Under the pieces are notes generated by a model. That model was not told the origin of the DNA, did not search any database, and was given only the letters and a program-made list of their open reading frames with translations. 14,097 nucleotides of DNA from Desulfonatronospira sp. (lineage in GTDB: Bacteria; Desulfobacterota; Desulfovibrionia; Desulfovibrionales; Desulfonatronovibrionaceae): contig PWSL01000199.1 in assembly GCA_003563255.1 (NCBI GenBank), positions 1-14,097 of the forward strand. Reading direction: 5' to 3'. Positions within the stretch are counted from its first letter, which is position 1. Each line of letters opens with the position of its first letter. Both the position numbers and the translations under genes were made by a program. Positions 469-14,097 of this stretch are shown piece by piece.

Positions 469-562
469 AAATACTTAGAAGATTTGCCTGAAACGGCAGC
501 GAACCATAAAGCAGTCTGCACCAGACCGACGTTCTCTGCACCCTGGCCAAGGAGGTAAGTTG

Positions 563-1150
563 ATGAGCGAAGAAATCGCCCAGGCGGAAACAGCGTCCGA
601 GAAAACAACAAAGGCTGGAAAAACCGCCGGGAAAGAAGCTAAAAAAGAAGAGCCGCAGGGCCCCAGTTACACCGGCTATGACGCCGACTTCTTCGTGGCC
701 CCCCAGGATCTTTTCAAGGCAGTGGAAAAACTGGATCAGACAGGCTTCTTCCTGGAAGACGTGTCCTGTATAGATATGCAGGAAGGCTTCCAGATCGTCT
801 ATCACTTCGACAGATTTGACCAGCCCGGCCGGGTCGGCATCAGGGTGATGGTTTCCAAAGACAATCCGGAAGTACCTTCAATTTACGATATTTATCCCGG
901 AGCTGCATGGCACGAAAGAGAATGCTACGACTTCTTCGGGGTACGCTTTAAAGGCCACCCCAATCTGCTTCCCCTTCTTCTGGCTCCGGACCACGACGGT
1001 CCGCCCCCTCTGCTCAAAGACGAGTCCTCGCTCAAGGATATGCACCAGCTTTATCCGGACCGGGCTCATAGCCCAGTCTCCGTTGACAGCCAGGAATTTA
1101 TCCAGGCAATTACCAATTGTTCCAACAAACCAGGCAGGGATAAATCATGA
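563..1150 (+). CDS. nuoC: Complex I subunit C (30-kDa-type, NuoC)
   Basis: NuoC is a peripheral-arm subunit without cofactors that packs against NuoD near the quinone site. The family signature is clear at residues 112-140: WHERE (116-120), then DFFGV and GHP followed by a leucine-rich stretch. The start is ATG 563, with AAGGAGGT at 549-556 and 7 nt between GGAGG and ATG; an in-frame TTG directly before it has poorer spacing. The 195-residue length is normal for the unfused form. Residues 12-36 are a Lys/Ala/Glu-rich low-complexity N-terminus that is not part of the fold. The stop overlaps the nuoD start by ATGA. It is the first recognisable gene of the operon; nuoA and nuoB, usual upstream neighbours, are not seen. 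Confidence 0.95.
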   Translation: MSEEIAQAETASEKTTKAGKTAGKEAKKEEPQGPSYTGYDADFFVAPQDLFKAVEKLDQTGFFLEDVSCIDMQEGFQIVYHFDRFDQPGRVGIRVMVSKDNPEVPSIYDIYPGAAWHERECYDFFGVRFKGHPNLLPLLLAPDHDGPPPLLKDESSLKDMHQLYPDRAHSPVSVDSQEFIQAITNCSNKPGRDKS

Positions 1151-2307
1151 ACCTTGATCTGAGACTAGACACCAAGGGGGATTTTTATTCCCAGAGGTTC
1201 CAGCCCACTGAGCGCGAGGATACCCTGGTCCTGAACATGGGGCCTCAGCATCCATCCACTCACGGAGTGCTGCGCATACTGCTGGAAATCGACGGTGAAT
1301 ATATTCTCAGGGCCGAGCCGGTCCTGGGGTATATCCATCGCATGCACGAAAAGATGGCTGAAGTCATGAGCTATCCCCAGTACCTGCCCAACCCGGGGCG
1401 GACCGACTACCTGCATGCCCTGGCCTGGAACTGGGCACATGTGGCGGCCGTGGAAAGGCTCATGAACATCGAGGTACCGGAAAGGGCCGAATACATCAGG
1501 GTCATAACCTGCGAACTGAACCGGATCTCATCGCATCTACTGTGGTGGGGAGCCATTCTCCTGGACCTGGGTGCCTTCACCCCAATAATGTATGCCTTTG
1601 ACGACCGGGAAAGGATCCAGGACATCATGCAGCGCAACACAGGGTCCAGGCTGACCTACTGCTATTACAGATTCGGAGGGGTGGCCGCCGACATCGATGA
1701 CAAGTTCATCGAAGATACCAGGACAGAATGCGCCAGGCTCAAGGACCGGGCCAAGATGTTCAAGGACCTGGTCACGGACAACTTTATTCTGCGTAAAAGA
1801 ATGGAAGAGATCGGTGAAATCCCCATTGACACCTGCCGCAGGTATGGAGCCACAGGCCCGGTCCTGCGGGGATCCGGGCAGCCATACGATGTGCGGCGCG
1901 CAGAACCCTACTCCATTTACGATCGCTTCGACTTCAAAATCCCGGCCTACGATACCTGTGACTCCATGGGCCGCTACCTGGTGCGTATGGACGAGATACA
2001 GGAGAGTATAAAAATAATCGAGCAGGCTCTGGATACTCTGCCTGAAGGAGATTACATCCTGCCCAAAGCTCCCAAGCGTCCCAAACCACCGGCAGGCGAT
2101 GTGTACTTCGCAGTTGAAGGGGCCAGGGGCAAAATCGGAATTCACCTGGTAAGCGACGGGGGCAAATCCCCATATCGCCTCAAACTGCGGGCCCCCGGCT
2201 TCTCCAACCTGAGCCTCTTTTCCGAAGTCGCCCAGGGAACACTCATCGCCGACGCCGTCGCGATTCTGGCAAGCCTTGACCTGGTCATACCGGAGATAGA
2301 CAGATGA
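1147..2307 (+). CDS. nuoD: Complex I subunit D (49-kDa-type, NuoD)
   Basis: NuoD forms the quinone pocket with NuoB and NuoH and descends from the large subunit of [NiFe] hydrogenases. The hallmark GPQHPSTHGVLR occurs at residues 32-43, so His39 and Tyr88 (in DYLH) match the quinone-headgroup residues described in the family. GYIHRMHEKMAE (61-72) and the C-terminal EIDR are also typical. The paired N- and C-terminal cysteines that hold the NiFe centre in hydrogenases are absent, as expected for a quinone-type enzyme. At 386 residues it is of unfused length (not a NuoCD fusion). The start ATG 1147 overlaps the nuoC stop, with AGGGA at 1136-1140 as a modest ribosome site. The stop overlaps nuoH. 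Confidence 0.97.
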   Translation: MNLDLRLDTKGDFYSQRFQPTEREDTLVLNMGPQHPSTHGVLRILLEIDGEYILRAEPVLGYIHRMHEKMAEVMSYPQYLPNPGRTDYLHALAWNWAHVAAVERLMNIEVPERAEYIRVITCELNRISSHLLWWGAILLDLGAFTPIMYAFDDRERIQDIMQRNTGSRLTYCYYRFGGVAADIDDKFIEDTRTECARLKDRAKMFKDLVTDNFILRKRMEEIGEIPIDTCRRYGATGPVLRGSGQPYDVRRAEPYSIYDRFDFKIPAYDTCDSMGRYLVRMDEIQESIKIIEQALDTLPEGDYILPKAPKRPKPPAGDVYFAVEGARGKIGIHLVSDGGKSPYRLKLRAPGFSNLSLFSEVAQGTLIADAVAILASLDLVIPEIDR

Positions 2308-3287
2308 TAGAAGCAATACCTACGCAATTCATTATTATTTTCGTGGGCCTGCTGGCGATCATGGCCTTTGTCGGCCTCAACGCCGTGGTCCTGGTGTATC
2401 TGGAAAGGAAAGTGGCCGGTTTTATCCACAGGAGACCCGGTCCTTACGAAGTGGGCCCCCCATGCTTCCCTCACGGGATTCTGCAGCCCTTGGCCGATGG
2501 TCTCAAACTGGTGGGCAAGCAGATTTTCACCCCCAGGGGAGCGGACAGTTTCCTGTTCTGGCTGGCTCCAATGATATCCATAGCCCCGGCCATTGTCTGC
2601 TTTATCGCCATCCCTTTCGGGCCATACCTGCAGGTTATCAATACCAACGTGGGCCTGATTCTGATCCTGGCCTTCACCGGGATCAACGTCCTGGCCCTGT
2701 GCCTGGCCGGCTGGGCCTCACAGAACAAGTACGGCCTTATAGGCGCGGCCAGGGATATCTCCCAGGGTGTCGCCTACGAAATCCCTCTGCTCCTGGTGGT
2801 CCTGTCGGTGGTCTTCATGACCGGGACCTTCAACCTTTTCGACATCGCCGACGGACAGGGGGCCTGGCCGTGGCAGTGGTACATTGTATATCAGCCCCTG
2901 GCCTTTATTCTCTTTTTCATCTGTGCCCTGGCCGAAACCAACAGGAACCCCTTTGACCTCCCCGAGGCCGAGAGCGAGCTCACTGCCGGGTTCCACACCG
3001 AGTATTCGGGCATGGCTTTCGCCTGCTTTTTCCTTGCGGAATACGCCTACATGGTGGTGGCGGCCTGTATCATCGCAATTCTGTTCCTGGGCGGATTTCA
3101 GGGACCGGTTGCACCCGGGATATGGTGGTTTCTGGCCAAGGTCTATGTTTTGCTGCTGATCATGATCTGGATCAGGTGGACTTTTCCTAGGGTACGTTTT
3201 GATCAGCTGCTCAACATCTGCTGGAAATGGCTGATTCCCCTTGCCGTTCTTAATCTTCTGATAACCTTAGCGGTGATTGCCTTATGA
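2304..3287 (+). CDS. nuoH: Complex I membrane subunit H (NuoH)
   Basis: NuoH is the membrane subunit that closes the quinone chamber and links quinone reduction to the proton-pumping arm. ERKVAG begins at residue 34, LQPLADGLKL follows from 60, and the strongest signature is at 210-236 (AETNRNPFDLPEAE, then HTEYSG). The 327-residue length and multiple hydrophobic segments fit the family. One oddity is VGP-PCFP-HGILQP: about four residues (53-56) are inserted in the normally tight RxGPxxVGPxGLLQP loop facing the quinone site. The start ATG 2304 overlaps the nuoD stop by ATGA, with GGAG at 2292-2295. The stop overlaps nuoI in the same way, implying translational coupling. Confidence 0.97.
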   Translation: MIEAIPTQFIIIFVGLLAIMAFVGLNAVVLVYLERKVAGFIHRRPGPYEVGPPCFPHGILQPLADGLKLVGKQIFTPRGADSFLFWLAPMISIAPAIVCFIAIPFGPYLQVINTNVGLILILAFTGINVLALCLAGWASQNKYGLIGAARDISQGVAYEIPLLLVVLSVVFMTGTFNLFDIADGQGAWPWQWYIVYQPLAFILFFICALAETNRNPFDLPEAESELTAGFHTEYSGMAFACFFLAEYAYMVVAACIIAILFLGGFQGPVAPGIWWFLAKVYVLLLIMIWIRWTFPRVRFDQLLNICWKWLIPLAVLNLLITLAVIAL

Positions 3288-3823
3288 TAGTCAAAAGCTT
3301 GAGCGAAACCCTGTCGGGCATGTGGAGCCTGCTGGTGGGAATGAAGGTGACCGCAGTCAACTTCAAATCACCCCAGATAACCGTCCATTACCCGCGTCAG
3401 GTCACCAACCTGGATGGCTACCGGGGACATATTGAGCTTGTTCCAAGCGATGAAGATCCCACGAAGTCCAAGTGCATAGCCTGTAGCAATTGTGTGCGCA
3501 TATGCCCGGGAGCCTGCATTTCTCTGAAGGCTTCCAAGCCCAAGAAAAAGGCGGCCCCGGAAAAGACTGACGCCCCTTCTACTGCAAACGAAGCCCAACC
3601 AGAAAGCAAAAAAGAAGCCCCACCTAAAAAGGCCAAGCCTGAATTGCAGTCCTTTGTCCTGGACTACAACTATTGCTGCCTCTGCGGACTGTGCGTTGAG
3701 AGTTGCCCCTCCGGGGCCTTGAGATACTCCAGCGACGTTTATGTAGCCGGATTCACCAGGCAGGAGTTTGTCTACGACCTGCTGTCCAGACTTCAATATC
3801 AGGCTCAGAAAAAGGAGCAGTAA
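3284..3823 (+). CDS. nuoI: Complex I 2x[4Fe-4S] subunit I (NuoI)
   Basis: NuoI is an 8Fe ferredoxin-like subunit that carries electrons along the peripheral arm towards the N2 cluster. Two CxxCxxCxxxCP motifs are complete: Cys64/67/70/74 and Cys131/134/137/141. Between them, residues 83-119 form a Lys/Pro/Ala/Glu-rich low-complexity linker, longer than the short spacer usual in NuoI (E. coli type). The N-terminus (about 1-30) is the amphipathic segment that sits on the membrane near NuoH. Length is 179 residues. The start ATG 3284 overlaps the nuoH stop; the stop TAA directly abuts the nuoJ ATG. The position between nuoH and nuoJ is the standard complex I order minus nuoE/F/G. Confidence 0.96.
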   Translation: MIVKSLSETLSGMWSLLVGMKVTAVNFKSPQITVHYPRQVTNLDGYRGHIELVPSDEDPTKSKCIACSNCVRICPGACISLKASKPKKKAAPEKTDAPSTANEAQPESKKEAPPKKAKPELQSFVLDYNYCCLCGLCVESCPSGALRYSSDVYVAGFTRQEFVYDLLSRLQYQAQKKEQ

Positions 3824-4348
3824 ATGGAAAATCTGGAATACGAAAGACTGGCCTGGGCAGTGCTCTTCGGGCACATCGTCATAATAGTCGTCGGCGGATT
3901 TATGACTGTACTTTCCCAGAGTCTGGTCCGGGCACTTGTAGGCTTGATAATGACCCTCTTCGGCGTGGCTGGACTGTTTTTCCTCATGGCCGCCCCCTTT
4001 ATCGCCCTGATGCAGATCCTCATCTATGTCGGCGCAGTCAGCGTGCTAATTTTTTTCGCCATCATGCTCACCAGTGCATGGCCGGGTGGAGATGAAAGCG
4101 GGAAATGCTCAGGCAGAAAGTATATTTATGCCGGCGTGGCCGGGCTCGTGCCAGCCGTTATTCTGGCTACAGCGGCCATCCGTTCTGCTCCACCATCATT
4201 TCTGGTGCCGGAAGAGACGGAAATCAGCGTTCTGGGGAAGTTTTTCCTGGAGGATTTCATCCTGCCCTTCGAGCTAATCTCATTGCTGCTGACTGTAGCC
4301 ATGGCTGGTGCAGTAGTCCTGGCTTTTGAAATGAGGAGGAAAAAATGA
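3824..4348 (+). CDS. nuoJ: Complex I membrane subunit J (NuoJ)
   Basis: NuoJ is a five-helix membrane subunit between NuoH and the antiporter-like subunits; its third helix holds the pi-bulge that switches during turnover. The sequence is hydrophobic throughout, with the characteristic ALMQILIYVGAVSVLIFF near residues 61-78. The 174-residue length is usual for the family. The start ATG directly follows the nuoI stop, with AAGGAG at 3812-3817 and 6 nt spacing. The gene ends in an ATGA overlap with nuoK and a strong GAGGAGG just inside its 3' end serves nuoK. Confidence 0.94.
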   Translation: MENLEYERLAWAVLFGHIVIIVVGGFMTVLSQSLVRALVGLIMTLFGVAGLFFLMAAPFIALMQILIYVGAVSVLIFFAIMLTSAWPGGDESGKCSGRKYIYAGVAGLVPAVILATAAIRSAPPSFLVPEETEISVLGKFFLEDFILPFELISLLLTVAMAGAVVLAFEMRRKK

Positions 4349-4653
4349 GTGTAATGACCATCTACCACCTGGTGGCCATTTTTCTGTTGTGTCTGGGCAT
4401 ATTCGGCATTGCCTACAGAAGGACCCTGGTGGGGATTGTTCTCGGTATAGAGCTTATACTCAACGGAGCAGGCCTTAGCATCATGGCCTCTGCGCAACTC
4501 ACACCGGCCCCTAATGAACTGGGACAGGTGGGGGCCTTGCTGGTCATGGGTATAGCCGCAGCCGAAGCAACCCTGCTGCTGGCCATCCTTCTGGTTGTTT
4601 CCAGGCGCTTCAAAAATGTTGAGGCCGGCAAACTTATCACTATGCGAGGATAA
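4345..4653 (+). CDS. nuoK: Complex I membrane subunit K (NuoK)
   Basis: NuoK is a small three-helix subunit (102 residues) resembling MrpC that provides the E-channel glutamates linking NuoJ to the first antiporter-like subunit. Glu36 (in GIELILNG) and Glu74 (in AAAEATL) match the two essential membrane glutamates of E. coli NuoK (Glu36 and Glu72). Predicted helices are about 3-22, 28-48 and 60-86. The start ATG 4345 overlaps the nuoJ stop and has GAGGAGG a few bases upstream. The stop TAA (4651-4653) is followed after 3 nt by a short ORF, and then the additional antiporter subunit. Confidence 0.95.
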   Translation: MSVMTIYHLVAIFLLCLGIFGIAYRRTLVGIVLGIELILNGAGLSIMASAQLTPAPNELGQVGALLVMGIAAAEATLLLAILLVVSRRFKNVEAGKLITMRG

Positions 4654-4656
4654 AAA

Positions 4657-4722
4657 ATGTCTTGGGATCTAAAGCTGCGCTTTGGTTTCGCCTCTAGCCC
4701 AAATAAGGATGTTATGACATGA
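4657..4722 (+). CDS. Possible 21-residue leader/coupling ORF
   Basis: A short ORF (N-terminus MSWDLKLRFGF, C-terminus NKDVMT) starts at ATG 4657 with GAGGA at 4646-4650 and 6 nt spacing. Its TGA (4720-4722) overlaps the ATG of the next gene (4719) by ATGA, the same junction style used elsewhere in this operon. This suggests translation runs through the spacer between nuoK and the extra antiporter subunit. The peptide has no recognisable domain. It may be a coupling device rather than a functional protein, or chance: 22 codons is short. Confidence 0.4.
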   Translation: MSWDLKLRFGFASSPNKDVMT

Positions 4723-6230
4723 TGCCCTCTATTTTACTCCAGATAATCTTTGTCCCGGCTCTGGCCGCCTTGGTTATCCTGCTCTTCAGGTTTCAGCTGG
4801 GTATGAAAGCTGGATGGGTGGCTGTAGCTGGACTTGCATACACTACTCTTCTGTTGCTCCTTGCCTTTTTCAATGTCTACAAAGGCGCGCCTATCGAGGA
4901 AACGTACCAGATACTTAAAAGCCCGGATATAAGTATTACCCTGGTTGCAGACGGACTCAGCATCGCTGTGGCCTTTATCTGCAATATCCTCTGCCTGGCT
5001 TTGGGCACTTATTCCATAAAGTATATCTATCACCGCATCGAGGTCCTGTACCCGGAGACCATTGGAAACAAGGGCGAAATAAGCTGGTATGCTTGTTTTT
5101 ATTATCTCTTCCTGTTCTTTCCAGTGGGGTTTATGGGTGTCAGTTTTGCCAGCGACCTGGTACTGATGTACTTTTTTCTTGAAGTCCTGACACTGTTTTT
5201 GTTTTTCCTCATGGCCTACTTCGGCTACTATGAACGGGTATGGGTGGCCATAATCTGTACTGTATGGGGAATATTCTCAGCGTTGTTCTTCCTGGCCGGA
5301 GTGGCCCTTATCTACTCCCAGACCGGGTCATTTCAGATTGAACAGATCCACACAATGTCCGGAGACCCCTTGGCGTTCTGGGCTATCCTGCTGGTTCTGG
5401 TGGGCATGATCGCCAAACTGGCCATCGTCCCGCTGCATGTCTGGATGCCCTGGGTTCACGCAGAACATCCTACCTGCATTGCCGGACTTCTTGCGGTGTA
5501 TGCCAATATTGCGGCTTATATTATAGTCAGGATGCTGGTTTTGCCCCTGTGGGACGATTTTCAGGTTTTCGGACCGTACATCATGGTACTGGCTGTAATC
5601 ACCATGGTTTACGGCTCACTGCTTACCCTGGCTCAGAGGGATATGAAACGCATCCCGGCCTGCTCAACCATCAGTCAGAGCGCCTATTCCATGCTGGGCA
5701 TCGGGGCTTTGACGGCCGCCAGCATTGAAGGGGGGCTGTTCTTTTTCCTGAGTCACATCATGGGCAAGACGGTCTTCTTTTCCGCCTGCGGTCTGGTAGT
5801 TTATATGACCCACATCAGAAACGTAAAATATCTGGGCGGACTTGGGGCAAAAATGCCCATTACCGCATTGGTTTTTCTAAGCGGGGGCATGATGCTGGCT
5901 GGTATACCGCCTTTCAGCAGCTTTGCCGCGGAAGTGGTGATGTTTGCAGGAATATTCGAGCGCGGAGACACTTTCGGCCTGGTCATCGGAATCATCGGGC
6001 TGATGGCGATTCTATTAAGTATTTCGTATGCAGTGCATTTTACACGCATAATATTCTTTGGTCCGCTCCCGGAAAAGCTGGCCAATGATGATCATATCAA
6101 GGATCCGCCCTGGGTAATGCTGGCACCACTCATCGCTATTATCCTTTTATCAGCGTTTCTGGGGCTTTACCCGACTCTGGTCATGGAGCTTTTCGAACCG
6201 GTCATCAGTAGTGCAATAGCCAACATGTAA
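4719..6230 (+). CDS. Additional NuoM-like antiporter subunit of complex I
   Basis: This 503-residue polytopic protein belongs to the proton-conducting antiporter-like family (NuoL/M/N, MrpA/D, HyfB). Channel residues are in place: Glu155 in helix 5 (FFLEVLTL), Lys233 in helix 7 (IAKLAIVPLHVWMP) and Glu405 in the C-terminal half (SFAAEVVMF), the last matching the NuoM-type glutamate. Near Lys233 it reads MPWVHAEHPTCIAGLLA, unlike the LPxAHxEAPT of standard NuoM, so it is a distinct subtype. It lies between nuoK and nuoL, in addition to normal nuoL, nuoM and nuoN, making a fourth pumping-type subunit. Start ATG 4719 (AAGGAT at 4705-4710, 8 nt spacing) is coupled to a short upstream ORF; ATG 4722 is an alternative. 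It could instead be MrpD- or HyfB-related; the residues favour NuoM. Confidence 0.85.
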   Translation: MMPSILLQIIFVPALAALVILLFRFQLGMKAGWVAVAGLAYTTLLLLLAFFNVYKGAPIEETYQILKSPDISITLVADGLSIAVAFICNILCLALGTYSIKYIYHRIEVLYPETIGNKGEISWYACFYYLFLFFPVGFMGVSFASDLVLMYFFLEVLTLFLFFLMAYFGYYERVWVAIICTVWGIFSALFFLAGVALIYSQTGSFQIEQIHTMSGDPLAFWAILLVLVGMIAKLAIVPLHVWMPWVHAEHPTCIAGLLAVYANIAAYIIVRMLVLPLWDDFQVFGPYIMVLAVITMVYGSLLTLAQRDMKRIPACSTISQSAYSMLGIGALTAASIEGGLFFFLSHIMGKTVFFSACGLVVYMTHIRNVKYLGGLGAKMPITALVFLSGGMMLAGIPPFSSFAAEVVMFAGIFERGDTFGLVIGIIGLMAILLSISYAVHFTRIIFFGPLPEKLANDDHIKDPPWVMLAPLIAIILLSAFLGLYPTLVMELFEPVISSAIANM

Positions 6231-6233
6231 CTA

Positions 6234-6267
6234 CTGGGTTTTTTCTACCCAGCGCTGTAAATACAGC
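6234..6267 (+). other. Two small hairpins between the extra antiporter gene and nuoL
   Basis: CTGGGT (6234-6239) pairs with ACCCAG (6247-6252) around a T-rich 7-nt loop, followed immediately by GCTGTA/TACAGC (6254-6259 and 6262-6267). No U-tract follows, so these are not good terminators. They could be RNA processing or stability sites in the 76-nt gap. Confidence 0.35.
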
Positions 6268-6306
6268 CCATAGATAAGAACTATAAACCTTGAGGTGGGT
6301 ACGAAT

Positions 6307-8406
6307 ATGGATATTCAGCTTGCGTGGCTCTGCCTGATCTTCCCTTTCATCGGGGTCCTTGTTACCCCGTTTCTGGCACGCATCAGCACCACGGTGATGA
6401 ATTTCGGAGCTGTCTTCTTTTCATTTCTGGCGGCAGCCTGTGCAGTCATGCTGTTTCCGCTGGTATTCAGCGCTGAAAACCTGCCCTTGGAGTCGCAGCT
6501 GGTGTGGCTGCATACGCCCATTACCGTCAGCTTCGGGGTTCTGGTGGATCCTCTGAGTATAATCGTGGCCAATGTGGTGGCGGTTATCAGTTTTTTCATT
6601 ATGGTTTATTGTTTAGGCTACATGAAGGGCGATCCAGGTATCATGCGCTTCTGGATGCTCATGAACGCCTTTATCGGCAGCATGCTGCTCCTGGTACTGG
6701 CCAACAACCTCATAATCATATTTATCGGCTGGAAGCTGGTGGGACTATGCAGTTACGGACTTATCGGTTTTTACTACCGCGACGAGAAAAAATACTGGAT
6801 CGGCGGCCCGGAGCCGTACTCCTTTGACAAGCCTTCAGCCTGCGGAGTAAAGGCTTTCATCGTCACCAGCGTGGGTGATATGCTTATGCTCGGTGGCATA
6901 CTCATCATGTACTTCTATGCCGGCACCTTCAATGTCCTGGAACTCTACCAGACGGCCCCGGAATGGATTCCGGCCATGGCTGCAACCCCGGGGATGATTA
7001 TCCTGGTAAGTATACTCCTTATAGCCGGACCTGTCGGCAAATCGGCCCAGTTTCCCATGCATGAATGGCTGCCTGAGGCCATGTCCGGACCTGGGCCTGT
7101 ATCAGCCCTGATCCACGCCGCCACCATGGTCAAGAGCGGCGTGTTTCTAATAGCCCGATTCATTCCAATATTCTACTACGGATACTGGACCGCCGGGGTG
7201 GAAGAAGCCATGTATTTCTTTCTGATTGTGGCCTGGATCGGTGCCATCACAGCGTTTCTGGCGGCCAGTCAGGGGCTTGTGGCCCTGGAGTTAAAGAAAA
7301 TTCTGGCCTACTCTACTGTAAGCCAGATAGGTTACATGATGCTGGCCCTGGGTGTGGCCGGGTTCAGCCAGGATCTGCTGGTCAAGGGATATGCCGCCGG
7401 TACTTTTCACCTCATGAGCCATGCCATGTTTAAGGCTTGCCTGTTCCTCTGCGCGGGTACGGTCATTCACGCGGCACACTCCATATATATAAACGATATG
7501 GGTGCCTTGAGGAAGTTTCTGCCTTACACCTGGCTCTTCATGGGTCTGGCGACCCTTTCTCTCATAGGAGTACCGCCTCTGCCCGGCTTCTGGAGCAAGG
7601 AGGCCGTGTTGCTGGCTACCCTGGAGTCCCAGCACATGATGCTGTTTTTGATAGTTCTTGTATCGGTTATATTTACAGCCTTTTACTCCACCCGGTATTT
7701 CGGAATGATGTTTCACGGACGGCAGAGCAGGCATATCAAACAGGAACTAAAAAAACCCCATCACCATGTTCATGAGGGGTATTTGCCACAGACTATCGCA
7801 TGCGGTGTGCTGGCGGCAGGGATAGTCATATTCGGCCTCATGGGGATGCGTGTGGAATATGCCCTTTATGGACTTTTTGAGACTCAGCTGGTTCAGGACT
7901 TGGCGCACTCAACTGTTCTAAGCGTACCATCATTTGACAAGACCCTGATCATGGTACTTTCCATTAGCAGCGTACTCATCGGTGTTATTCCGGCCTACAT
8001 GTTTTACATAGCCAGAAAATGGGATGCCGACCTGGTATACGAAAGATCCAGGCTGGTGCAGGTGGTGCATGCTTTCCTGTGGAACAGGTGGTATATAAAT
8101 GCTTTTTACAACTGGTTCTTCGCCAGAGGTGTCATGGGAATAGCCAGGTTCGTGGCTGAGAAGATTGAGATAGCTGTTGATACGGTCATAAACAAATTGA
8201 CTCCGTCAGGGGTGTTTGGTCTGTCCAGTATTTCCGTCTGGTTTGACAAAAAAGGTATTGACGGATTTCTGGACGGACTTGCTTACCATGTTCAGAACAG
8301 TGCCGGGGGAACCCTGGCCAGGATCCAGAACGGCAGGATCCAGGAGTATCTGGCCCTGGCCGTTATTATAGCCCTGATAGTCTGCGGCTTTTTCTGGCTG
8401 TCATGA
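6307..8406 (+). CDS. nuoL: Complex I antiporter-like subunit L (NuoL), extended
   Basis: NuoL is the distal proton-pumping subunit, whose C-terminal lateral helix braces the membrane arm. Signatures include VGLCSYGLIGFYY, GKSAQFPMHEWLPEAM (Lys245), SALIHAATMV, AYSTVSQIGYM and GFWSKE (Lys431). Length is 699 residues against about 610-650 usually. From Arg607 (ARGVMGIARF) to the GIDGFLDG motif at 650 there are 43 residues, against about 17 in the common NuoL consensus, so the lateral-helix region is about 26 longer. At residue 143 the motif reads GWKLVG where NuoL normally has GWExVG, replacing the conserved helix-5 glutamate with lysine. Another lysine, Lys276 (MVKSG), replaces the usual threonine. 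Start: ATG 6307 fits GAGGT at 6292-6296 (10 nt); the in-frame GTG 6295 lies inside that site. Confidence 0.95.
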   Translation: MDIQLAWLCLIFPFIGVLVTPFLARISTTVMNFGAVFFSFLAAACAVMLFPLVFSAENLPLESQLVWLHTPITVSFGVLVDPLSIIVANVVAVISFFIMVYCLGYMKGDPGIMRFWMLMNAFIGSMLLLVLANNLIIIFIGWKLVGLCSYGLIGFYYRDEKKYWIGGPEPYSFDKPSACGVKAFIVTSVGDMLMLGGILIMYFYAGTFNVLELYQTAPEWIPAMAATPGMIILVSILLIAGPVGKSAQFPMHEWLPEAMSGPGPVSALIHAATMVKSGVFLIARFIPIFYYGYWTAGVEEAMYFFLIVAWIGAITAFLAASQGLVALELKKILAYSTVSQIGYMMLALGVAGFSQDLLVKGYAAGTFHLMSHAMFKACLFLCAGTVIHAAHSIYINDMGALRKFLPYTWLFMGLATLSLIGVPPLPGFWSKEAVLLATLESQHMMLFLIVLVSVIFTAFYSTRYFGMMFHGRQSRHIKQELKKPHHHVHEGYLPQTIACGVLAAGIVIFGLMGMRVEYALYGLFETQLVQDLAHSTVLSVPSFDKTLIMVLSISSVLIGVIPAYMFYIARKWDADLVYERSRLVQVVHAFLWNRWYINAFYNWFFARGVMGIARFVAEKIEIAVDTVINKLTPSGVFGLSSISVWFDKKGIDGFLDGLAYHVQNSAGGTLARIQNGRIQEYLALAVIIALIVCGFFWLS

Positions 8407-8478
8407 CAGGCAGAACCAGGACAATAATCCGAATGAATGCATATAACATCTATAAACCGTTTGCCGGAGTAGCCGACC

Positions 8479-10092
8479 ATGCTTAACACAGGTTTTCCCG
8501 TGCTCAGCGCCCTGATCTTTTTTCCGCTTATCGCTGCGGTAGTGCTCTTTTTCATCAGAGGAGACAACAACATCAGGGTGTTCACATTGGTTGTAAGTCT
8601 TATAGAATGTGTCCTGCTCGCCCCTATACTGCTGGGCTTTGACACCACAACAGCCCAGTTTCAATTTGTGGAAAAGCATGCCTGGATCGAGGCCTGGAAT
8701 ATCTACTACTTCCTCGGCATTGACGGGATAAGCGTTCTTATGGTGCTTTTGACTGTAATTCTATTGCCCATATGCGTGTTGTGCTCCTGGAAGTACATTG
8801 GGCAAAGGGTCAAGGAGTTTCACTTCTGCCTGCTGCTCATGACCACGGCATGCATAGGCATCTTCAGCGCACTGGACTTTATTCTCTTTTACATCTTCTG
8901 GGAAGCCATGCTTATTCCCATGTACCTTATGATCGCTGTATGGGGGGGGCCTCAGAGAAGATATGCCTCCCTGAAGTTCTTTTTATACACCCTGGCCGGA
9001 AGTACCTTATTTCTGGCAGCCATTATCGCTTTTTTCATCAATACCGGCACCTTTTCCATCCCTGAACTTATGGATCACAGGTACGCCTTTCAGTTTCAGG
9101 TATGGACTTTCCTGGCCATGGCCCTGGCTTTTGCCATCAAGGTGCCCCTTTATCCCTTTCACACCTGGCTGCCTGCCGCCCATGTTGAAGCCCCCACAGC
9201 TGGCAGTGTGCTGCTGGCTTCCATCCTCCTGAAAATGGGCACATACGGTTTTCTGCGCTTCTGCCTGCCCATAACTCCGGCAGCCAGTGAGTTTTTCGCG
9301 CCACTTATGATAACCCTGGCCCTGATATCCATTATAGTTGGATCCCTTCTGGCCATCGGCCAGTCAGACATGAAAAAGCTGATTGCTTATTCTTCGGTTG
9401 CCCACATGGGGTTTGTAACCCTGGGAATATTCGTGTTTGCCTTCAGAGGCGTTGAAGGGGCCATTATGCACATGGTCAACCACGGCATAATCACCGGCGC
9501 TATGTTTTTGCTGGTAGGCCTTATTTATGAGCGCAGCCACAGCCGCGAACTCTCTGAAAATATGGGTGTGAGCAGTTATTTGCCCGCGTATACAGGCTTT
9601 CTGCTGCTGTTTTCTCTGGCTGCATTCGGATTTCCCGGTACAAACGGCTTTTTCAGCAAACTACTGGTGCTGCTAGGGGTATTTGAAGCCAGTTATATCC
9701 TGGGAGTGCTTTTTGTCATCGGCCTAATACTGGGCCTGGTTTACCTCCTGCGCCTGCTTCTTAATGTTGGCTGGGGTAAACCCAGCAGCGTCAAAGGCTG
9801 GGCTGATATGAACAGCAGGGAGTGGGTATACCTGGTGCCGCTGGGCATTCTGGTCATTTATCTTGGTGTCGCCCCAGGAAGGGCTCTAAGCTTTATCAGC
9901 CCCTCCATTGAAAATCTGCTGGATAATTTTGAGGCCGAGAAGAATATCAGGGTAGAGCCTGTACCGCAGCCGGGACCGGAACTTTATTCCAGCAATAATA
10001 TTGAGATGGAATTATACATGGATAAGCCCATGAGGTTCACACTGTCTTACGCTTATGAGAATAGATTTGATTTTTACCGGGATACAAAATAG
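8479..10092 (+). CDS. nuoM: Complex I antiporter-like subunit M (NuoM)
   Basis: This is a canonical NuoM proton-translocating membrane subunit. FYIFWEAMLIPMY carries Glu142 (helix 5), AFAIKVPLYPFHTWLPAAH carries Lys221 (helix 7) followed by VEAPTAGSVLLA, and DMKKLIAYSSVAHMGF is the central discontinuous-helix motif. In the C-terminal half the motif reads GTNGFFSKLLVL, so Lys394 sits where NuoM usually has glutamate (E. coli Glu407). The 537-residue length includes a hydrophilic C-terminal tail (about 474-537) beyond the last helix, rich in Asn, Glu, Tyr and Phe. Start ATG 8479 has GGAG at 8466-8469, 9 nt away. A 72-nt gap without recognisable structure separates it from nuoL. Confidence 0.96.
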   Translation: MLNTGFPVLSALIFFPLIAAVVLFFIRGDNNIRVFTLVVSLIECVLLAPILLGFDTTTAQFQFVEKHAWIEAWNIYYFLGIDGISVLMVLLTVILLPICVLCSWKYIGQRVKEFHFCLLLMTTACIGIFSALDFILFYIFWEAMLIPMYLMIAVWGGPQRRYASLKFFLYTLAGSTLFLAAIIAFFINTGTFSIPELMDHRYAFQFQVWTFLAMALAFAIKVPLYPFHTWLPAAHVEAPTAGSVLLASILLKMGTYGFLRFCLPITPAASEFFAPLMITLALISIIVGSLLAIGQSDMKKLIAYSSVAHMGFVTLGIFVFAFRGVEGAIMHMVNHGIITGAMFLLVGLIYERSHSRELSENMGVSSYLPAYTGFLLLFSLAAFGFPGTNGFFSKLLVLLGVFEASYILGVLFVIGLILGLVYLLRLLLNVGWGKPSSVKGWADMNSREWVYLVPLGILVIYLGVAPGRALSFISPSIENLLDNFEAEKNIRVEPVPQPGPELYSSNNIEMELYMDKPMRFTLSYAYENRFDFYRDTK

Positions 10093-10126
10093 TCACAAGC
10101 GGATAAAATCTGCCCAGGCAGGATAA

Positions 10127-10132
10127 AAGGAG
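10127..10132 (+). promoter_or_regulatory. Ribosome binding site deciding the nuoN TTG start
   Basis: AAGGAG at 10127-10132 lies 7 nt upstream of TTG 10140. No in-frame ATG occurs until the fifteenth codon, inside the first hydrophobic segment, so the TTG is the best-supported start for nuoN. Confidence 0.7.
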
Positions 10133-10139
10133 ACAAGCC

Positions 10140-11555
10140 TTGCTTAACTTCAATCCTCAACTCATAATACCAGAATTGTACATGGTGGCTTTGCTGGCGG
10201 TTTTATTCGTCCAGAGCATAAGCGACAGACTTAAGGACAAAATCCTTTGGGTGCCTTTTGCCGCCTTGCTTGGAGCATTTCTGGCCTATTTCTCTCCATC
10301 CGGCGTGGAGTATATGTTTTATGAATCATACCGCATTGACGGCCTGTCACAGTTCTTCAAGACCATTATTTTTCTCGGCCTGGCCATATGCGCGGCCAAT
10401 GCTCTTCGGGTAGGCTCCCTGGGCAAAGCCAACAGGGCCGACTATTTCTTTTTCATGTACATGAGCGCCTTTGGATTGCTCCTGCTTTCCAGCACGGTGG
10501 AACTGTTCACCATCTACATCTCCCTGGAACTGTCGGCTTTCAGTCTATACATACTTTTGCCTTTCAGAAACAATGATCCGCGGGCGGTGGAAGCAGCCAT
10601 CAAATACGTCCTTTTCGGGGCCGTGGCTACGGCCATAGGTCTGTACGGCATATCCTACATCCTGGCTGTGCAGCATACCACGTACATCAACGAACTTCTG
10701 ACTCTGGACTGGTCCTTTACCGGTCAACCCATGGCCCTTATCGGCCTGACCATGTTCCTGCTGGCCTTTCTGTACAAACTGGCCCTTTTCCCCTTTCATT
10801 TCTGGGCCCCTGACGTATACCAGGGAGCCAGCAACGAAACAGCCGCATTTGCCGCTACCCTGCCCAAGCTGGGAGCCATAGTCATCATGGTCCGGCTCAT
10901 GGCCTTTAATCCCGGCATGGAAGTCAAGACAATCCTGGCCGTCTTTGCCGCCATCTCCATGACCTTCGGAAACTTGGTGGCCTTGATTCAAAAAGACGTA
11001 AAAAGGCTTCTGGGTTATTCCAGCGTAGCCCATGCAGGTTTTATCATTATGGGCCTGGTAGCCGGAGGTGCATACGGGCTGGCTGCGGCCTCGTATTACG
11101 CTCTCGTTTACATGGTTATGAACCTGACTATATTCTGGATCATTACCCGCATTTCTCACGATGGTAAGAACGTATATATAAGCGATCTGCGCGGGCTGTA
11201 TTCCAGTTCGCCCATACTGGCTTTCGTGCTGGCGGTATCAGCATTCGCCCTGGTGGGACTGCCGCCCACCGCTGGTTTTATCGGCAAGCTTTTTCTGTTC
11301 AATTCCGCTTGGGATGCCGGGTTCTACTGGCTGGTTATTGTCGGGGTAATAAACACAGCCCTGGCCATTTTCTACTACCTGAACCTGGTAAGACATGCCT
11401 ACACTCTGGATGAAGTAGTCCCAGCCAGGATCAGCCTTAGTCCCGTAGGTGCATCCATTGCTGTGATACTGGCCCTGAGTGTGCTTTATCTGGGTGTAAT
11501 GCCCCAGAATATATTTGACTTCCTGGTCCAGGCCAGCCAGATTATCCTGTCATGA
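10140..11555 (+). CDS. nuoN: Complex I antiporter-like subunit N (NuoN)
   Basis: NuoN is the antiporter-like subunit adjacent to NuoK in the assembled membrane arm. Glu130 (YISLELSAFSLY), Lys213 (FLYKLALFPFHFWAPDVYQGA) and Lys383 (GFIGKLFLF) are the expected channel residues, and DVKRLLGYSSVAHAGF is the central motif. The VYQGA sequence after the helix-7 motif is diagnostic for NuoN over NuoM. Length is 471 residues, usual for the family. It begins with TTG, giving an MLN N-terminus like the preceding nuoM, and is the last gene of the operon; a strong intrinsic terminator lies 30 nt after its TGA. Confidence 0.96.
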   Translation: MLNFNPQLIIPELYMVALLAVLFVQSISDRLKDKILWVPFAALLGAFLAYFSPSGVEYMFYESYRIDGLSQFFKTIIFLGLAICAANALRVGSLGKANRADYFFFMYMSAFGLLLLSSTVELFTIYISLELSAFSLYILLPFRNNDPRAVEAAIKYVLFGAVATAIGLYGISYILAVQHTTYINELLTLDWSFTGQPMALIGLTMFLLAFLYKLALFPFHFWAPDVYQGASNETAAFAATLPKLGAIVIMVRLMAFNPGMEVKTILAVFAAISMTFGNLVALIQKDVKRLLGYSSVAHAGFIIMGLVAGGAYGLAAASYYALVYMVMNLTIFWIITRISHDGKNVYISDLRGLYSSSPILAFVLAVSAFALVGLPPTAGFIGKLFLFNSAWDAGFYWLVIVGVINTALAIFYYLNLVRHAYTLDEVVPARISLSPVGASIAVILALSVLYLGVMPQNIFDFLVQASQIILS

Positions 11556-11584
11556 TGCAGCTCAACGGATAGATGCGGTATTCA

Positions 11585-11622
11585 AGCCCTGCATCCAATG
11601 GATGCAGGGCTGTTTTCGTTTT
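11585..11622 (+). terminator. Rho-independent terminator of the nuo operon
   Basis: AGCCCTGCATC (11585-11595) pairs perfectly with GATGCAGGGCT (11601-11611), an 11-bp GC-rich stem with a CAATG loop, followed by the T-rich tract GTTTTCGTTTT (11612-11622). It lies 30 nt past the nuoN stop, where the operon should end. A frame that starts within the hairpin (11598) is not treated as a gene. Confidence 0.9.
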
Positions 11623-11773
11623 ATAAACTGACGGAATGGACATGGTACTCGGGCAGGCTGCAGAGTCAGCGCAATAATCTCTTTGAGGTCATGTTCTGCT
11701 TCCGTATGTTGTTAATTCACGCGGTTATTTATCCGCAAATCATCGCTGCTGCGAAACTTCTCTATTCGTATCT
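11623..11773. other. Intergenic stretch with nothing recognisable
   Basis: Between the nuo terminator and the second MITE-like element I see no gene, RNA or convincing promoter on either strand. One open frame crosses it (11598-11831), but it lacks a ribosome site and ends inside the inserted element. Confidence 0.5.
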
Positions 11774-11781
11774 GTTTAGCG

Positions 11782-11970
11782 AGGAGCATTACGCGTTTCT
11801 GAAAACTGAACACATAAGGAATTTATCATAGCTTGTTTTGGGTTAAAAACTGTTTATTAGGCTCTTGGTACGGGGACTGTCCCCGGCTTCGGGACTGTCC
11901 CCATCCGGTTATTCAGTCCCCGGCTTCGGGACTGTCCCCATCCGGTTATTCAGAAACGCGTAATGCTCCC
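11782..11970. mobile_element. 189-bp MITE-like element with 8-bp target duplication
   Basis: Perfect 21-bp inverted repeats lie at 11783-11803 (starting GGAGCATTACGCG) and 11949-11969. One mismatched base (A 11782, C 11970) extends each end, and the 8-bp direct repeat GTTTAGCG follows directly on both sides (11774-11781 and 11971-11978). This symmetry is that of a transposon-type insertion with an 8-bp target duplication. There is no transposase; the interior holds an AT-rich stretch, the palindrome GGGGACTGTCCCC (11872-11884) and a 37-bp tandem repeat. Several IS families make 8-bp duplications; I cannot assign one. The inverted repeats are unrelated to those of the 25-167 element. Confidence 0.75.
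11872..11952. repeat. GGGGACTGTCCCC palindrome plus perfect 37-bp tandem duplication
   Basis: The palindrome GGGGACTGTCCCC occupies 11872-11884. Overlapping it, the 37-bp unit beginning GTCCCCGGCTTCGGGACTG occurs twice without a mismatch at 11879-11915 and 11916-11952. Each unit contains GGGACTGTCCC and ends CCGGTTATTCA. It is REP-like in character, and the second unit overlaps the right inverted repeat of the enclosing element by four bases. Confidence 0.8.
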
Positions 11971-11993
11971 GTTTAGCGCTTTGCATGTGGCAT

Positions 11994-12085
11994 GGGGACT
12001 GGTTATTCCGGGACCCACTTGTCCCAGAAAATGAGATATTTTAGCACAAAATGATGCTCAAATGGGTCCCGGAGTGCCTGTCCCC
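11994..12085. repeat. 92-bp REP-like hairpin
   Basis: CCGGGACCCA (12008-12017) pairs perfectly with TGGGTCCCGG (12063-12072). The outer ends GGGGAC (11994-11999) and GTCCCC (12080-12085) also pair, giving a two-part stem. The ends GGGGACTGG and GTGCCTGTCCCC match the layout of the palindrome at 54-125. It lies upstream of treZ, just after the second MITE-like element. It is not followed by a clear U-tract and is probably a dispersed repeat rather than a terminator. Confidence 0.65.
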
Positions 12086-12182
12086 TGCTTTCCTTATAAA
12101 GGGCTAAACTGATACCTCTATTCTATGCATGCACAATTTACAGGTTGATCCAGCTTCTGGAGCAACTAAGAAAAGAGGCTTA

Positions 12183-13949
12183 ATGAAGTACCATGCCGGT
12201 GAAGCATCGCTCCAGCAGCTGCGGGTGTGGGCTCCGAGGGCGCAAATGGTGGAGCTGGCACAGGGACAAGACAGAACCCTCATGCTTGAGATAGAAGACG
12301 GATGGTGGCTTGCAGAAAAAAGTCCAGACCACGGCCAGGACTATGCTTTTTTTCTGGATGGTGACGGACCTTTGCCGGATCCCCGATCGTCCTGGCAGCC
12401 CCGAGGCGTTGATGGCCCATCCAGGCGGCTGGATCACGGCCGCTTTGAGTGGAGTGATCAGGGCTTTCAGCCAGCCCCCCTGCCTTCGGCCGTTATTTAT
12501 GAGCTTCATGTGGGCACCTTCACCCCGGAAGGGACTTTTTTGGGAGTACTGGAGAAGCTTGATCACCTGGTTGAGCTGGGGGTCAGCCATATTGAACTCA
12601 TGCCCGTGGCCCAGTTTTCAGGGAATCGCGGCTGGGGTTATGACGGGACTGGTCTTTATGCACCGCACCACGCCTACGGCCACCCTGAGGATCTGAAGAA
12701 ACTGGTCAATGCCTGCCATGAACGGGGTCTGGGGGTGATCCTGGATGTTGTCTACAACCACCTGGGGCCCAAGGGCAATTATCTGCCCCGTTTCGGACCT
12801 TATTTTACCGACCGCTACCGCAACCCCTGGGGGTCAGCGGTGAATTTTGACGGTTCCTACAGCGATGAAGTCCGCCGGTTCTTTATAGATAACGCTCTCA
12901 TGTGGTTGAGGGACTATCATTTCGACGGTCTGCGCCTGGATGCGGTGCATGCATTATTTGATTTTTCAGCCAGGCACTTCCTGGAGGAACTGGCCCTGGA
13001 AGTCAGGGAGCTTGAGGCCGGGCTGGGCCGGCATCTGGTGCTTATAGCCGAAAGCGATCTCAATGATCCTCGTATTGTCAGGCCGACTTACGCCGGCGGA
13101 TATGATGTCCATGCCCAGTGGAACGAGGATTTTCACCACGCCCTGCATGCGGCCCTCACCGGAGAGAACCATGGTTATTACGCCGATTTCGGAGGGCTGT
13201 CCCCACTGGCCAGGGCTATGGAAACAGGCTTTGTGTATGACGGGGCTTATTCAGTGTTCCGTCGCCGCAGACATGGCCGTCCTGCCCCGGACCTTTGCGG
13301 TCACCAGTTTGTGGGCTGCCTGCAGAATCACGACCAGGTGGGCAACCGGGCCGGTGGAGAGCGCACATCTCACCTGCTCACCCCGGGACAGCTCAAGATT
13401 GGAGCGGCCCTGGTGCTGACCTCACCCTTCATTCCAATGCTTTTTCAGGGAGAAGAATGGGGGGCAAAGACGCCTTTTCTGTATTTCACCGATCACGAGG
13501 ATAAGCATCTGGCCAGGGCCGTGTTCCTGGGACGTATGGCCGAGTTTGCGGATTTCGGCTGGCAGCCTGAAAACATACCCGACCCGCAGGCTCTGGAAAC
13601 CTTTGCCAGTTCCAGGCTTGACTGGCAAGAGATGCATCTGGACATACACGCTGAGATCCTTGACTGGCATAAGCAGCTTATTATTCTTCGCCGCCATGGT
13701 CTCGACCTGAGCAGTGGGCGACTGGACCGGGTGCGGGTGGATTTTCATGAAGAGGATGAATGGCTGGTGATACACCGTGGGTCTGCCATAGTGGCATGCA
13801 ATTTTGCCTCCATCCGGCAGACAGTTTCCCTGGATGAGCAGGCTGTGGATTTGCACATTGTGCTTGCTTCGCATGCGCTCGCCTCACTCTACGGCCGGGA
13901 CCTGTTTCTGCCTGGCCACAGTGTAGCCGTGCTGAGTTGCAAGAGTTGA
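12183..13949 (+). CDS. treZ: Maltooligosyltrehalose trehalohydrolase (TreZ)
   Basis: TreZ is a GH13 enzyme that releases trehalose from maltooligosyltrehalose made by TreY. An N-terminal carbohydrate-binding-type segment (LRVWAPRAQMVEL) precedes the TIM barrel starting YELHVGTFTPEGTF. The family motif NRGWGYDGTGLYAPHHAYG is present, then DVVYNHLGP. Catalytic residues are Asp253 (GLRLDAVHAL, nucleophile), Glu290 (LIAESDLNDP, acid/base) and Asp384 (LQNHDQVGNR, transition-state stabiliser). The 588-residue length fits. ATG 12183 is chosen because AAGAGG (12173-12178) precedes it, although 4 nt spacing is short; an in-frame ATG at 12129 would add 18 residues but has no ribosome site. treY is not in the window. 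The likely role is trehalose synthesis from glycogen for osmotic stress, consistent with a saline habitat (inference). Confidence 0.95.
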   Translation: MKYHAGEASLQQLRVWAPRAQMVELAQGQDRTLMLEIEDGWWLAEKSPDHGQDYAFFLDGDGPLPDPRSSWQPRGVDGPSRRLDHGRFEWSDQGFQPAPLPSAVIYELHVGTFTPEGTFLGVLEKLDHLVELGVSHIELMPVAQFSGNRGWGYDGTGLYAPHHAYGHPEDLKKLVNACHERGLGVILDVVYNHLGPKGNYLPRFGPYFTDRYRNPWGSAVNFDGSYSDEVRRFFIDNALMWLRDYHFDGLRLDAVHALFDFSARHFLEELALEVRELEAGLGRHLVLIAESDLNDPRIVRPTYAGGYDVHAQWNEDFHHALHAALTGENHGYYADFGGLSPLARAMETGFVYDGAYSVFRRRRHGRPAPDLCGHQFVGCLQNHDQVGNRAGGERTSHLLTPGQLKIGAALVLTSPFIPMLFQGEEWGAKTPFLYFTDHEDKHLARAVFLGRMAEFADFGWQPENIPDPQALETFASSRLDWQEMHLDIHAEILDWHKQLIILRRHGLDLSSGRLDRVRVDFHEEDEWLVIHRGSAIVACNFASIRQTVSLDEQAVDLHIVLASHALASLYGRDLFLPGHSVAVLSCKS

Positions 13950-13976
13950 ACAAAGTATGCCACGCTCGAAAGCAAT

Positions 13977-14097
13977 AGGATTTCCTGCAAAGCAGGGTTT
14001 AACTCGGGCCTGCCCGGTTAAACAAATCCGAAGGATTTCCTGCAAAGCAGGGTTTAACTCGGGCCTGCCCGGTTAAACAAATCCGAAGGATTTCCTG
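13977..14097. repeat. Perfect 55-bp tandem repeat of back-to-back hairpins (2.2 copies, cut by window end)
   Basis: The 55-bp unit starts at 13977, 14032 and 14087 with no mismatch seen. Each unit folds into three adjoining hairpins with no gap between them: CCTGC-AAA-GCAGG (13984-13996), GTTTAAC...GTTAAAC enclosing CGGG-CCTG-CCCG (13997-14023), and AAATCC-GAA-GGATTT across the unit junction (14024-14038). The array begins 27 bp after the treZ stop and runs off the window. It lacks U-tracts, so it is not an ordinary terminator. No flanking direct-repeat/spacer pattern suggests CRISPR. Confidence 0.85.

Follow-up and report, generated by a model that had tools for sequence, protein, structure and literature searches.

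Bioenergetics has yet to explain how redox energy is conveyed to those antiporter subunits of complex I that are remote from the quinone site. One variant of the enzyme, 2M complex I, was reportedly presented by Chadwick et al. in 2018 (ISME J 12:2668), and to our knowledge its L-M-M-N gene layout (single letters denote nuo genes or their products) is not universal. Here we analyze the nuo operon in a 14,097-nucleotide stretch of DNA from Desulfonatronospira sp. (GenBank assembly GCA_003563255.1, contig PWSL01000199.1, positions 1 to 14,097, forward strand; hereafter the window), which encodes a fourth antiporter-like subunit, here called X, in addition to NuoL, NuoM, and NuoN. An earlier, sequence-only reading had taken X for a second NuoM and the whole for a 2M complex I. 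We propose instead, with a probability of roughly 0.78, that this is a four-pump complex I which obtained its present distal end by capturing an X-L' cassette like those of Mrp antiporter operons, where L' is the Mrp-type relative of NuoL. The outermost proton pump appears to have been replaced by two linked antiporter-type pumps, giving four instead of three, and comparison of the sequences indicates that the variant most likely differs from known 2M complexes in having acquired its fourth pump through cassette capture rather than duplication of NuoM.

Our knowledge of 2M complexes comes from passages in papers that cite the original report (PMC9040806, PMC7117926, PMC6606698). An adjacent pair of NuoM genes is described for the 2M complexes of Chloroflexi in a passage of PMC7117926, and a passage of PMC9040806 mentions a 26-residue insertion in the lateral helix (HL) of MrpD2 from Manganitrophaceae, with an insertion of similar length in the 2M NuoL of Nitrospira. 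The latter source also describes the green complex I of rhizobia, in which NuoL is replaced by two MrpD-like subunits. Both green complex I and Complex_I_3 of Ca. Manganitrophaceae resemble the window in that Mrp-type subunits replace NuoL within a nuo operon, and Complex_I_3 additionally in the 26-residue HL insertion, which it carries in its Mrp-type subunit (PMC9040806, same passages). In the window, however, the pair at the NuoL position is X-L rather than of the D2-A2 kind, NuoL has a canonical C terminus, and NuoM carries a lysine in transmembrane helix (TMH) 12. Two nuo operons from genomes of the window's phylum (L134 and L136) have D2-A2 instead of NuoL and are likened to the green layout by gene order alone, not by comparison with rhizobial sequences; they too differ from the window, in the D2-A2 pair and in keeping the TMH12 glutamate of NuoM. 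More distant are the Mrp operons of Ca. Nitrospira alkalitolerans, where NuoM- and NuoL-like genes beside mrpD are taken as additional Mrp genes in a passage of PMC7784846. Going by that description only, these genes are probably of the L' and X kinds; there, in contrast to the window, Mrp subunits are present and NuoC, D, H, and I are absent. We recognized no description of the hybrid complex I discussed below in the openly licensed PMC literature that was searched.

The window is the start of a contig in a 3.52-Mb assembly (532 contigs, 99.14% complete), and its nuo operon has the order nuoC-D-H-I-J-K-X-L-M-N. The four antiporter-like genes are as follows:

4719..6230, forward strand: X, 503 amino acids, PF00361 match, with homologues in Mrp operons and a position set by the trees below
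6295..8406, forward strand: nuoL, 703 amino acids from a GTG codon, above the NDH_I_L cut-off; the likely start is the ATG four codons after the GTG
8479..10092, forward strand: nuoM, 559.8 bits to NDH_I_M, a true NuoM by descent (NuoM clade, support 100)
10140..11555, forward strand: nuoN, 323.9 bits to NDH_I_N, just under the cut-off of 332.6, with Lys383 at the TMH12 position

These open reading frames (ORFs), all of which match PF00361, bear out the earlier count of four antiporter-like subunits in the operon, an arrangement that recurs in relatives. They are the sole PF00361 matches in the whole assembly, in which we accordingly detect no other complex I and no Mrp antiporter. Canonical complex I, with three antiporter-like subunits and a TMH12 glutamate in NuoM, is thus not what the operon encodes, there being four such subunits with Lys394 in NuoM and Glu405 in X.

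The description of X as NuoM-like is loosely right, in that X matches NDH_I_M of NCBIfam, albeit at 212.6 bits, below the cut-off of 263.8 (559.8 for the window NuoM), and fails where it makes X a second NuoM. Scanning genome contigs for X homologues gave 53 loci (numbered with the prefix L), which were annotated against the window proteins and the Mrp proteins from L023 and L028. Six of them are nuo operons (L005-L009, L014). Among the other 47, all except L010, which is X alone, carry L' or D2/A2-type antiporter genes together with X, the L' proteins being 51-76% identical to the window NuoL, and genes for MrpE, F, G, or B are visible within the stretch examined in 30. Pfam confirms MrpE, F, G, B, the MrpC family, and MbhD/MbhE in L023 and, as a partial confirmation, MnhE and MbhE in L012. 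In a tree of 101 rows, in which M, N, MrpD, and D2 were represented by no more than 10 sequences each, the 10 complex-I X sequences form one clade (support 100). Its sister (support 97) is an X from L117, a D-X-L'-X Mrp operon of the window's bacterial family, in which this X immediately precedes L'. Together they nest among 49 other X sequences, and the gene order X-L is identical in L117 and the nuo operons. These tree positions, those of L given below, and the shared order lead us to infer that an X-L' cassette was captured and replaced the canonical nuoL. At the level of sequence, X is best described as an extra antiporter-like subunit of the Mrp-operon kind, and its interpretation as a duplicated NuoM is not supported.

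As comparators we used, in place of Nitrospira 2M complexes, 11 operons with two adjacent NuoM genes, from genomes of the phylum to which a metagenome-assembled genome (MAG) labelled Dehalococcoidia belongs, presumably Chloroflexota, along with subsets of X, N, MrpD, and D2. Both NuoM copies of these operons cluster with the rest of the NuoM (support 100), X falling outside this clade, and grouping X with the second copy is rejected by the approximately unbiased (AU) test (p 3.1e-5); on these grounds and that of the X tree we discarded the duplicated NuoM. It also follows from the clade without X that the window does not encode a 2M complex by descent. A genuine 2M complex I, with X as a diverged second NuoM and a canonical NuoL bearing an HL insertion, is therefore highly improbable, even though it would explain the four antiporter-like subunits, the score of NuoL above the NDH_I_L cut-off, the NuoM-like TMH12 glutamate of X, the position of X and all NuoM on one side of a branch (support 94), and the length of the NuoL end, as the corresponding segment measures 108-115 residues in all 11 two-NuoM operons and thus falls into the same length class. 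Besides the trees, it is countered by the joint occurrence of X and NuoL homologues in Mrp operons and by gene order, which is K-X-L-M-N in the window and L-M-M-N in 11/11 two-NuoM operons. X and NuoL both group with Mrp-operon antiporters, which is what the sequence-only reading had itself named, for X, as an outcome that would speak against 2M complex I.

The likeness to 2M complex I thus comprises the fourth antiporter-like subunit in the nuo operon and an HL about 26 residues longer, which is the part of the earlier claim that stood; descent and a second NuoM are the part that did not. The extra subunit lies outside the NuoM clade and is no NuoM paralogue, the NuoL body is Mrp-type, no NuoM pair in L-M-M-N order is present, and the TMH12 residues read K-K-E-K rather than the K-E-E-K of the two-NuoM arrays (Glu in 22/22 NuoM). 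By layout, the window complex would be a convergent counterpart of 2M complex I and may work like it. Given the integration of X into the nuo operon, the complex-I-type end of NuoL, and the changed NuoM, the inference of four pumps survives, whereas the 2M label does not. In the two-NuoM operons themselves (L168-L178), the NuoM next to nuoN has a leucine at the position of the TMH7 lysine (11/11) and keeps the TMH5 and TMH12 glutamates, so that one member of each pair may depart from the usual way of pumping; in L178 the same NuoM also has an alanine at the TMH8 lysine. No NuoM-NuoM pair was present in 16 regions of the window's phylum, some of them cut by contig ends and all chosen among the matches listed for NDH_I_M in 297 genomes; these regions instead included the two green-type operons.

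NuoL provides a second line of evidence. It passes the NDH_I_L cut-off of NCBIfam with 476.8 over 407.5 bits, and its C-terminal region divides as follows:

8077..8403, forward strand: segment from the RWYI motif to the C terminus (residues 595-703), HL plus last transmembrane helix, 109 residues
8161..8238, forward strand: 26 residues (623-648) without canonical counterpart in the HL alignment, their placement being alignment-dependent
8254..8403, forward strand: canonical-type NuoL C terminus (GIDG...RIQNGRIQEY..., last transmembrane helix), identified by profile scores

The sequence-only reading had counted 43 residues from Arg611 (607 from the internal ATG) to the GIDG motif at 654, which is correct, and about 26 extra residues, which agrees with our measurements: from RWYI to the C terminus, the 11 window-type NuoL have 108-110 residues (median 109) and 19 canonical NuoL 79-86 (median 83), a difference of +26, and alignment to four canonical NuoL gives 26 gap columns inside the HL segment. 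That the extra residues lie outside the lateral helix, the outcome that would have spoken against this claim, was not found; they fall within the HL segment, although its back half is predicted with low confidence. In 27 L' proteins, the same segment measures 84-90 (15), 103-108 (7), 114-115 (3), or 201 residues (2).

The two ends of this segment have different affinities. In all 11 window-type NuoL, the first 45 residues score 55-71 bits against a profile of Mrp-type L' and 8-23 bits against the canonical one, while the last 60 residues score 36-47 bits against the canonical NuoL profile and at most 0.3 against that of Mrp L'. In a sliding comparison with eight of the 27 L' proteins, NuoL shows 45-90% identity as far as residue 625 or so, falling to about 24% at its end. 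NuoL is accordingly, as judged from its sequence, a mosaic with an Mrp-type body and HL front and a canonical complex-I C terminus. Single-chain AlphaFold models show the HL of NuoL as one helix (599-654), followed by a low-confidence stretch and then the last transmembrane helix, and that of an Mrp-type L' (P0152) at 595-649 with the last transmembrane helix at 656-678, which places the extra residues within HL or between HL and the last helix. Among PDB matches, NuoL-type chains rank best and MrpA chains lower.

When the HL columns were excluded, a tree of 66 rows united the 11 complex-I L in one clade (99) nested among 27 Mrp-type L', and the 19 canonical NuoL in a separate one (95); forcing complex-I L and canonical NuoL into one clade was rejected (AU p 0.0155). 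This tree omitted L rows under 560 amino acids and used eight of 21 A2 sequences. All trees were of a quick kind with supports from the Shimodaira-Hasegawa-like approximate likelihood ratio test (SH-aLRT) only, and those of L, X, and the two-NuoM comparison gave long-branch warnings. ORFs under 440 amino acids or with more than five ambiguous residues were dropped, as were L009 (a near-copy of L119) and L121 (a near-copy of L006), and where a row had only one or two ambiguous letters, these were removed. The opposite direction of transfer, in which the X-L pair originated in complex I and later entered Mrp operons, has only a slim chance of being correct. Complex-I X and complex-I L each form a clade at the tip of their tree, all from one bacterial order, and sit with starred supports inside groups of sequences whose records are labelled archaea, Acidobacteriota, and Desulfobacterota, and entry into a nuo operon would account more readily for an Mrp-type body with a canonical C terminus; in favor of export, the AU test falls just short of rejecting (p 0.054) a topology that unites all Mrp-type L' in a clade of their own, next to complex-I L.

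A third line of evidence is the distribution of charged residues, of which three are central:

5931..5933, forward strand: X Glu405, at the TMH12 position of E. coli NuoM Glu407
9658..9660, forward strand: NuoM Lys394, at the TMH12 position, which is Glu in other NuoM examined
6733..6735, forward strand: NuoL Lys147, which replaces the TMH5 glutamate (E. coli NuoL Glu144)

The TMH12 residue is a lysine in all 11 NuoM encoded beside a window-type NuoL and a glutamate in the other 23/23 NuoM and in E. coli. Complex-I X have the glutamate in 10/10 cases, as do 28/32 X from loci without a full A2 gene; X from loci with A2 have lysine in 14/19. Read in the order N-M-X-L, the 10 complete arrays with X are K-K-E-K and the 17 canonical arrays are K-E-K, and the two green-type arrays keep the glutamate of NuoM, so that every one of these arrays contains exactly one TMH12 glutamate. 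As a universal rule, this was rejected, since there are two in two-NuoM operons and none in 14 of 16 loci of the D-D2-A2-X type. The swap, with lysine in NuoM and glutamate in X, may be taken as a sign that X is integrated into complex I. At the TMH5 position, lysine is found in 38/38 L and L' and glutamate in 19/19 canonical NuoL, and Glu257 and Lys280 are shared by all 38 members of the L/L' clade. Furthermore, the position of E. coli His100 is Met in 37 of these 38 proteins and that of Arg175 is Ser or Gly in all of them. Residues 103, 147, 192, 257, and 280 of the window NuoL, together with the L/L' clade, describe a terminal antiporter subunit with rearranged charges.

In published models, the terminal residue of subunit i couples to the ion pair of subunit i+1, as stated in passages of PMC5938582 and PMC11496545. 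With the order N-M-X-L, the facing TMH12/TMH5 pairs would be K/E, K/E, and E/K, whereas N-X-M-L would place like charges at two of the three facing pairs. The opposite charges of the former support that order, short of proving it. It is unlikely that the arm is instead ordered N-X-M-L, which would alter the favored reading in the order alone, or that X replaces NuoM in some particles, leaving three units at a time. No structure fixes the order, and the gene order K-X-L-M-N does not decide it, which leaves room for both; however, X adjoins L' in Mrp operons, the glutamate of X would face that of NuoM and the lysine of NuoM that of L, and in a three-unit arm the 26 extra residues would be without evident use.

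Gene content and charges together also bear on the idea that the operon co-transcribes a three-antiporter complex I with an independent or Mrp-like antiporter to which X, and perhaps L, belongs. It draws on the fact that X and L are both of Mrp-operon kinds and that D-L'-X clusters can occur apart from visible Mrp small subunits. In place of an Mrp set (MrpB, C, E, F, and G plus the C-terminal domain of MrpA), however, the operon has nuoC, D, H, I, J, and K. None of its ten ORFs is a gene for MrpB, E, F, or G, the assembly contains no second nuoL or other PF00361 gene, the C terminus of L is of the complex-I type in 11/11 cases, and the TMH12 residue of NuoM is altered in the same lineage. We rejected X as part of a separate antiporter on the first three of these counts, and overall consider such a co-transcribed antiporter quite improbable.

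Several observations weigh against a four-pump complex I that arose by capture of an X-L' cassette. Genes for nuoA and nuoB were searched for in the window's assembly and not found. The sliding identity of NuoL to canonical NuoL stays at about 13% at the C terminus, with no rise, which means that the canonical affinity of this end derives from profiles and the HL-only alignment. AlphaFold assigns residues 647-684 a predicted local distance difference test (pLDDT) score under 50 and gives no confident longer helix, and the AU test leaves the single clade of Mrp-type L' standing, as described above. In six loci (L026, L038, L049, L054-L056), the stretch examined contains D-L'-X but no Mrp small subunits, so that a complete Mrp operon is not the invariable setting of L' and X; loci of the 47 in neither this group nor that of the 30 with Mrp genes are short or cut. 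The TMH12 glutamates number two in 11/11 two-NuoM operons, and the L/L' clade as a whole lacks the TMH5 glutamate, so that L may not pump in the ordinary way. Since the complex-I sequences form one clade, the charge swap, the mosaic, and the HL length each count as one event. Finally, the A2 of L115 has a doubled HL unit with one X and the same D-D2-A2-X gene set as L028.

From gene order, homology, tree positions, the mosaic NuoL, HL length, and the charge pattern, all of which are directly observed, we propose the following scheme for the favored capture. A two-gene cassette of X and L', as in the D-X-L'-X Mrp operon of a relative, would have been inserted between nuoK and nuoM, replacing the canonical nuoL, with transfer in the direction from Mrp operon to complex I. 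L' would then have gained a complex-I-type C terminus by recombination or convergence, and the Mrp-type HL front joined to a canonical back would make HL 26 residues longer, about what one extra subunit should need. X and L would assemble with the other subunits into one complex, with a membrane arm in the order N-M-X-L, the single TMH12 glutamate residing in X beside the terminal unit and NuoM having a lysine. Each of the four units might move one proton by the usual complex-I mechanism, which with the E-channel would amount to about five H+ per two electrons.

The remainder of the operon, upstream of X, encodes part of the Q-module and proximal set, namely C, D, H, I, J, and K:

560..1150, forward strand: nuoC, first nuo gene on the contig, 196 amino acids with a charged N-terminal extension; NuoC_fam 84.6 bits, below the cut-off of 122
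1147..2307, forward strand: nuoD, NF004739 435.6 bits, over the cut-off of 360
2304..3287, forward strand: nuoH, NF004741 346.6 bits, over the cut-off of 305
3284..3823, forward strand: nuoI, two 4Fe-4S motifs; NuoI 78.5 bits, below the cut-off of 113
3824..4348, forward strand: nuoJ, best NuoJ model 93.1 bits, below the cut-off
4345..4653, forward strand: nuoK, best NuoK model 64.7 bits, below the cut-off

The two 4Fe-4S motifs of NuoI are joined by a linker rich in Lys, Ala, Pro, and Glu, and an alpha-amylase-family gene comes after nuoN. A and B, missing from the assembly as noted, lie directly 5' of nuoC in the relatives L008, L009, L014, L114, L116, and L118-L120. Positions 1-530 of the window, 5' of nuoC, are noncoding and rich in short inverted and direct repeats, and the sister genome has nuoA/nuoB there. 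Similarity to the nearest genome searched, G037, whose X is 97% identical, starts at position 531 when matches of 20 bases or fewer are ignored; with the repeats before it, this suggests that an insertion or a contig-end artefact parts nuoB from nuoC.

The window-type arrangement recurs in the nuo operons L005-L009, L014, L114, L116, and L118-L121, some of which share genomes and one of which (L014) ends inside X, and is therefore not due to chance; no flanking gene is common to all relatives. Within the class, X (E up to 1e-60) is found in 12 of 348 genomes and 4 of 59 genera, and a NuoL at least 74% identical in 13 of 348 genomes (15 matches, including the Mrp L' of G039 and that of G043). 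The gene context, available for 12 of these 13 genomes (all but G030), is a nuo operon each time, although G049 shows only L-M-N before the contig end. Loci were equated with genomes by coordinates (L005 with G034, L007 with G043, L008 with G042, and L014 with G040). Two genomes of the window's order, G049 and G054, have a window-type NuoL plus a second one that is 38-40% identical, which in G054 sits in a canonical nuo operon (L123).

The electron input of the complex would be ferredoxin, or else a module for NADH or formate acting in trans. The sequence-only reading had proposed a donor other than NADH. Its premise is right, as both the ORF list and an NCBIfam profile search show no nuoE, F, or G in the window operon, and the stretches of L114, L116, and L118-L122 have no match to them either. 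However, three NuoF-like genes occur in the genome, clustered with genes of the formate-dehydrogenase-alpha and NuoG-like kinds, so that NADH input in trans is possible and the exclusion of NADH does not follow. Two such clusters, with NuoF-like, NuoG-like, and formate-dehydrogenase-alpha genes, lie on G000:C436 (1-12000; L167) and C95 (L166) and probably encode NAD-linked formate dehydrogenases.

HL is also variable among the Mrp-type loci. Two NuoL-like Mrp-type proteins of about 795 amino acids (L030, 5824-8223; L034, 7596-10001) contain about four tandem HL units, with a segment of 201 residues as compared with 84-90 in 15 of the 27 L'. In L030, from the Methanophagales MAG Kmv05, a second X gene begins at the contig end, and in L034, from a MAG labelled Nitrosotalea that is perhaps misbinned, fragments of a second X are 81-85% identical to the first; both loci have lysine at TMH12 of X and isoleucine in MrpD. 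These complexes possibly hold more than four antiporter units. A doubled HL unit of 114-115 residues is found in L117 (10985-14625), L011 (448-5541), and L016 (7875-11506); there are two X genes in L117 (D-X-L'-X) and L011 (L'-X-X), and in L016 a single X precedes what looks like a transposase gene at the end of the contig. We abandoned the idea that HL length strictly measures the number of subunits, which is contradicted by L115 as compared with L028 and by the single X beside the doubled unit of L016. We tentatively suggest, at well below even odds, a looser relationship: complex I and the Mrp antiporters of anaerobes may share an expandable distal end that exchanges X-L cassettes, with HL growing by units of about 26-37 residues per added antiporter and the lone TMH12 glutamate having moved from NuoM to X, so as to be kept beside the terminal unit. 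If this is true, arm length and the H+/e- ratio evolve by the counting of modules, and the moved glutamate marks where the electrostatic signal of the arm must be inverted.

The role of the lone TMH12 glutamate of NuoM is disputed. According to a passage of PMC9271201, the E. coli NuoM E407K variant still pumps, at about 1.5 instead of 2 H+ per electron. The window lineage has the same residue in its NuoM and differs from the variant in that another subunit, the added neighbor X, supplies the glutamate, where in E. coli none does; the lysine is thus natural here, and it is accompanied by a terminal subunit with a changed TMH5 charge. A complex with four antiporter-like subunits is a natural test of how the signal passes along the complex I arm. 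If the four units do assemble, the lineage would offer coupling models a series of mutants made by nature, and a respiratory pump would have gained a unit from an antiporter and not by duplication. The hosts include Desulfonatronospira, Desulfonatronovibrio, and Desulfonatronum. These are haloalkaliphilic bacteria of the sulfur cycle that live on little energy, and for such hosts the H+/e- stoichiometry of complex I should matter.

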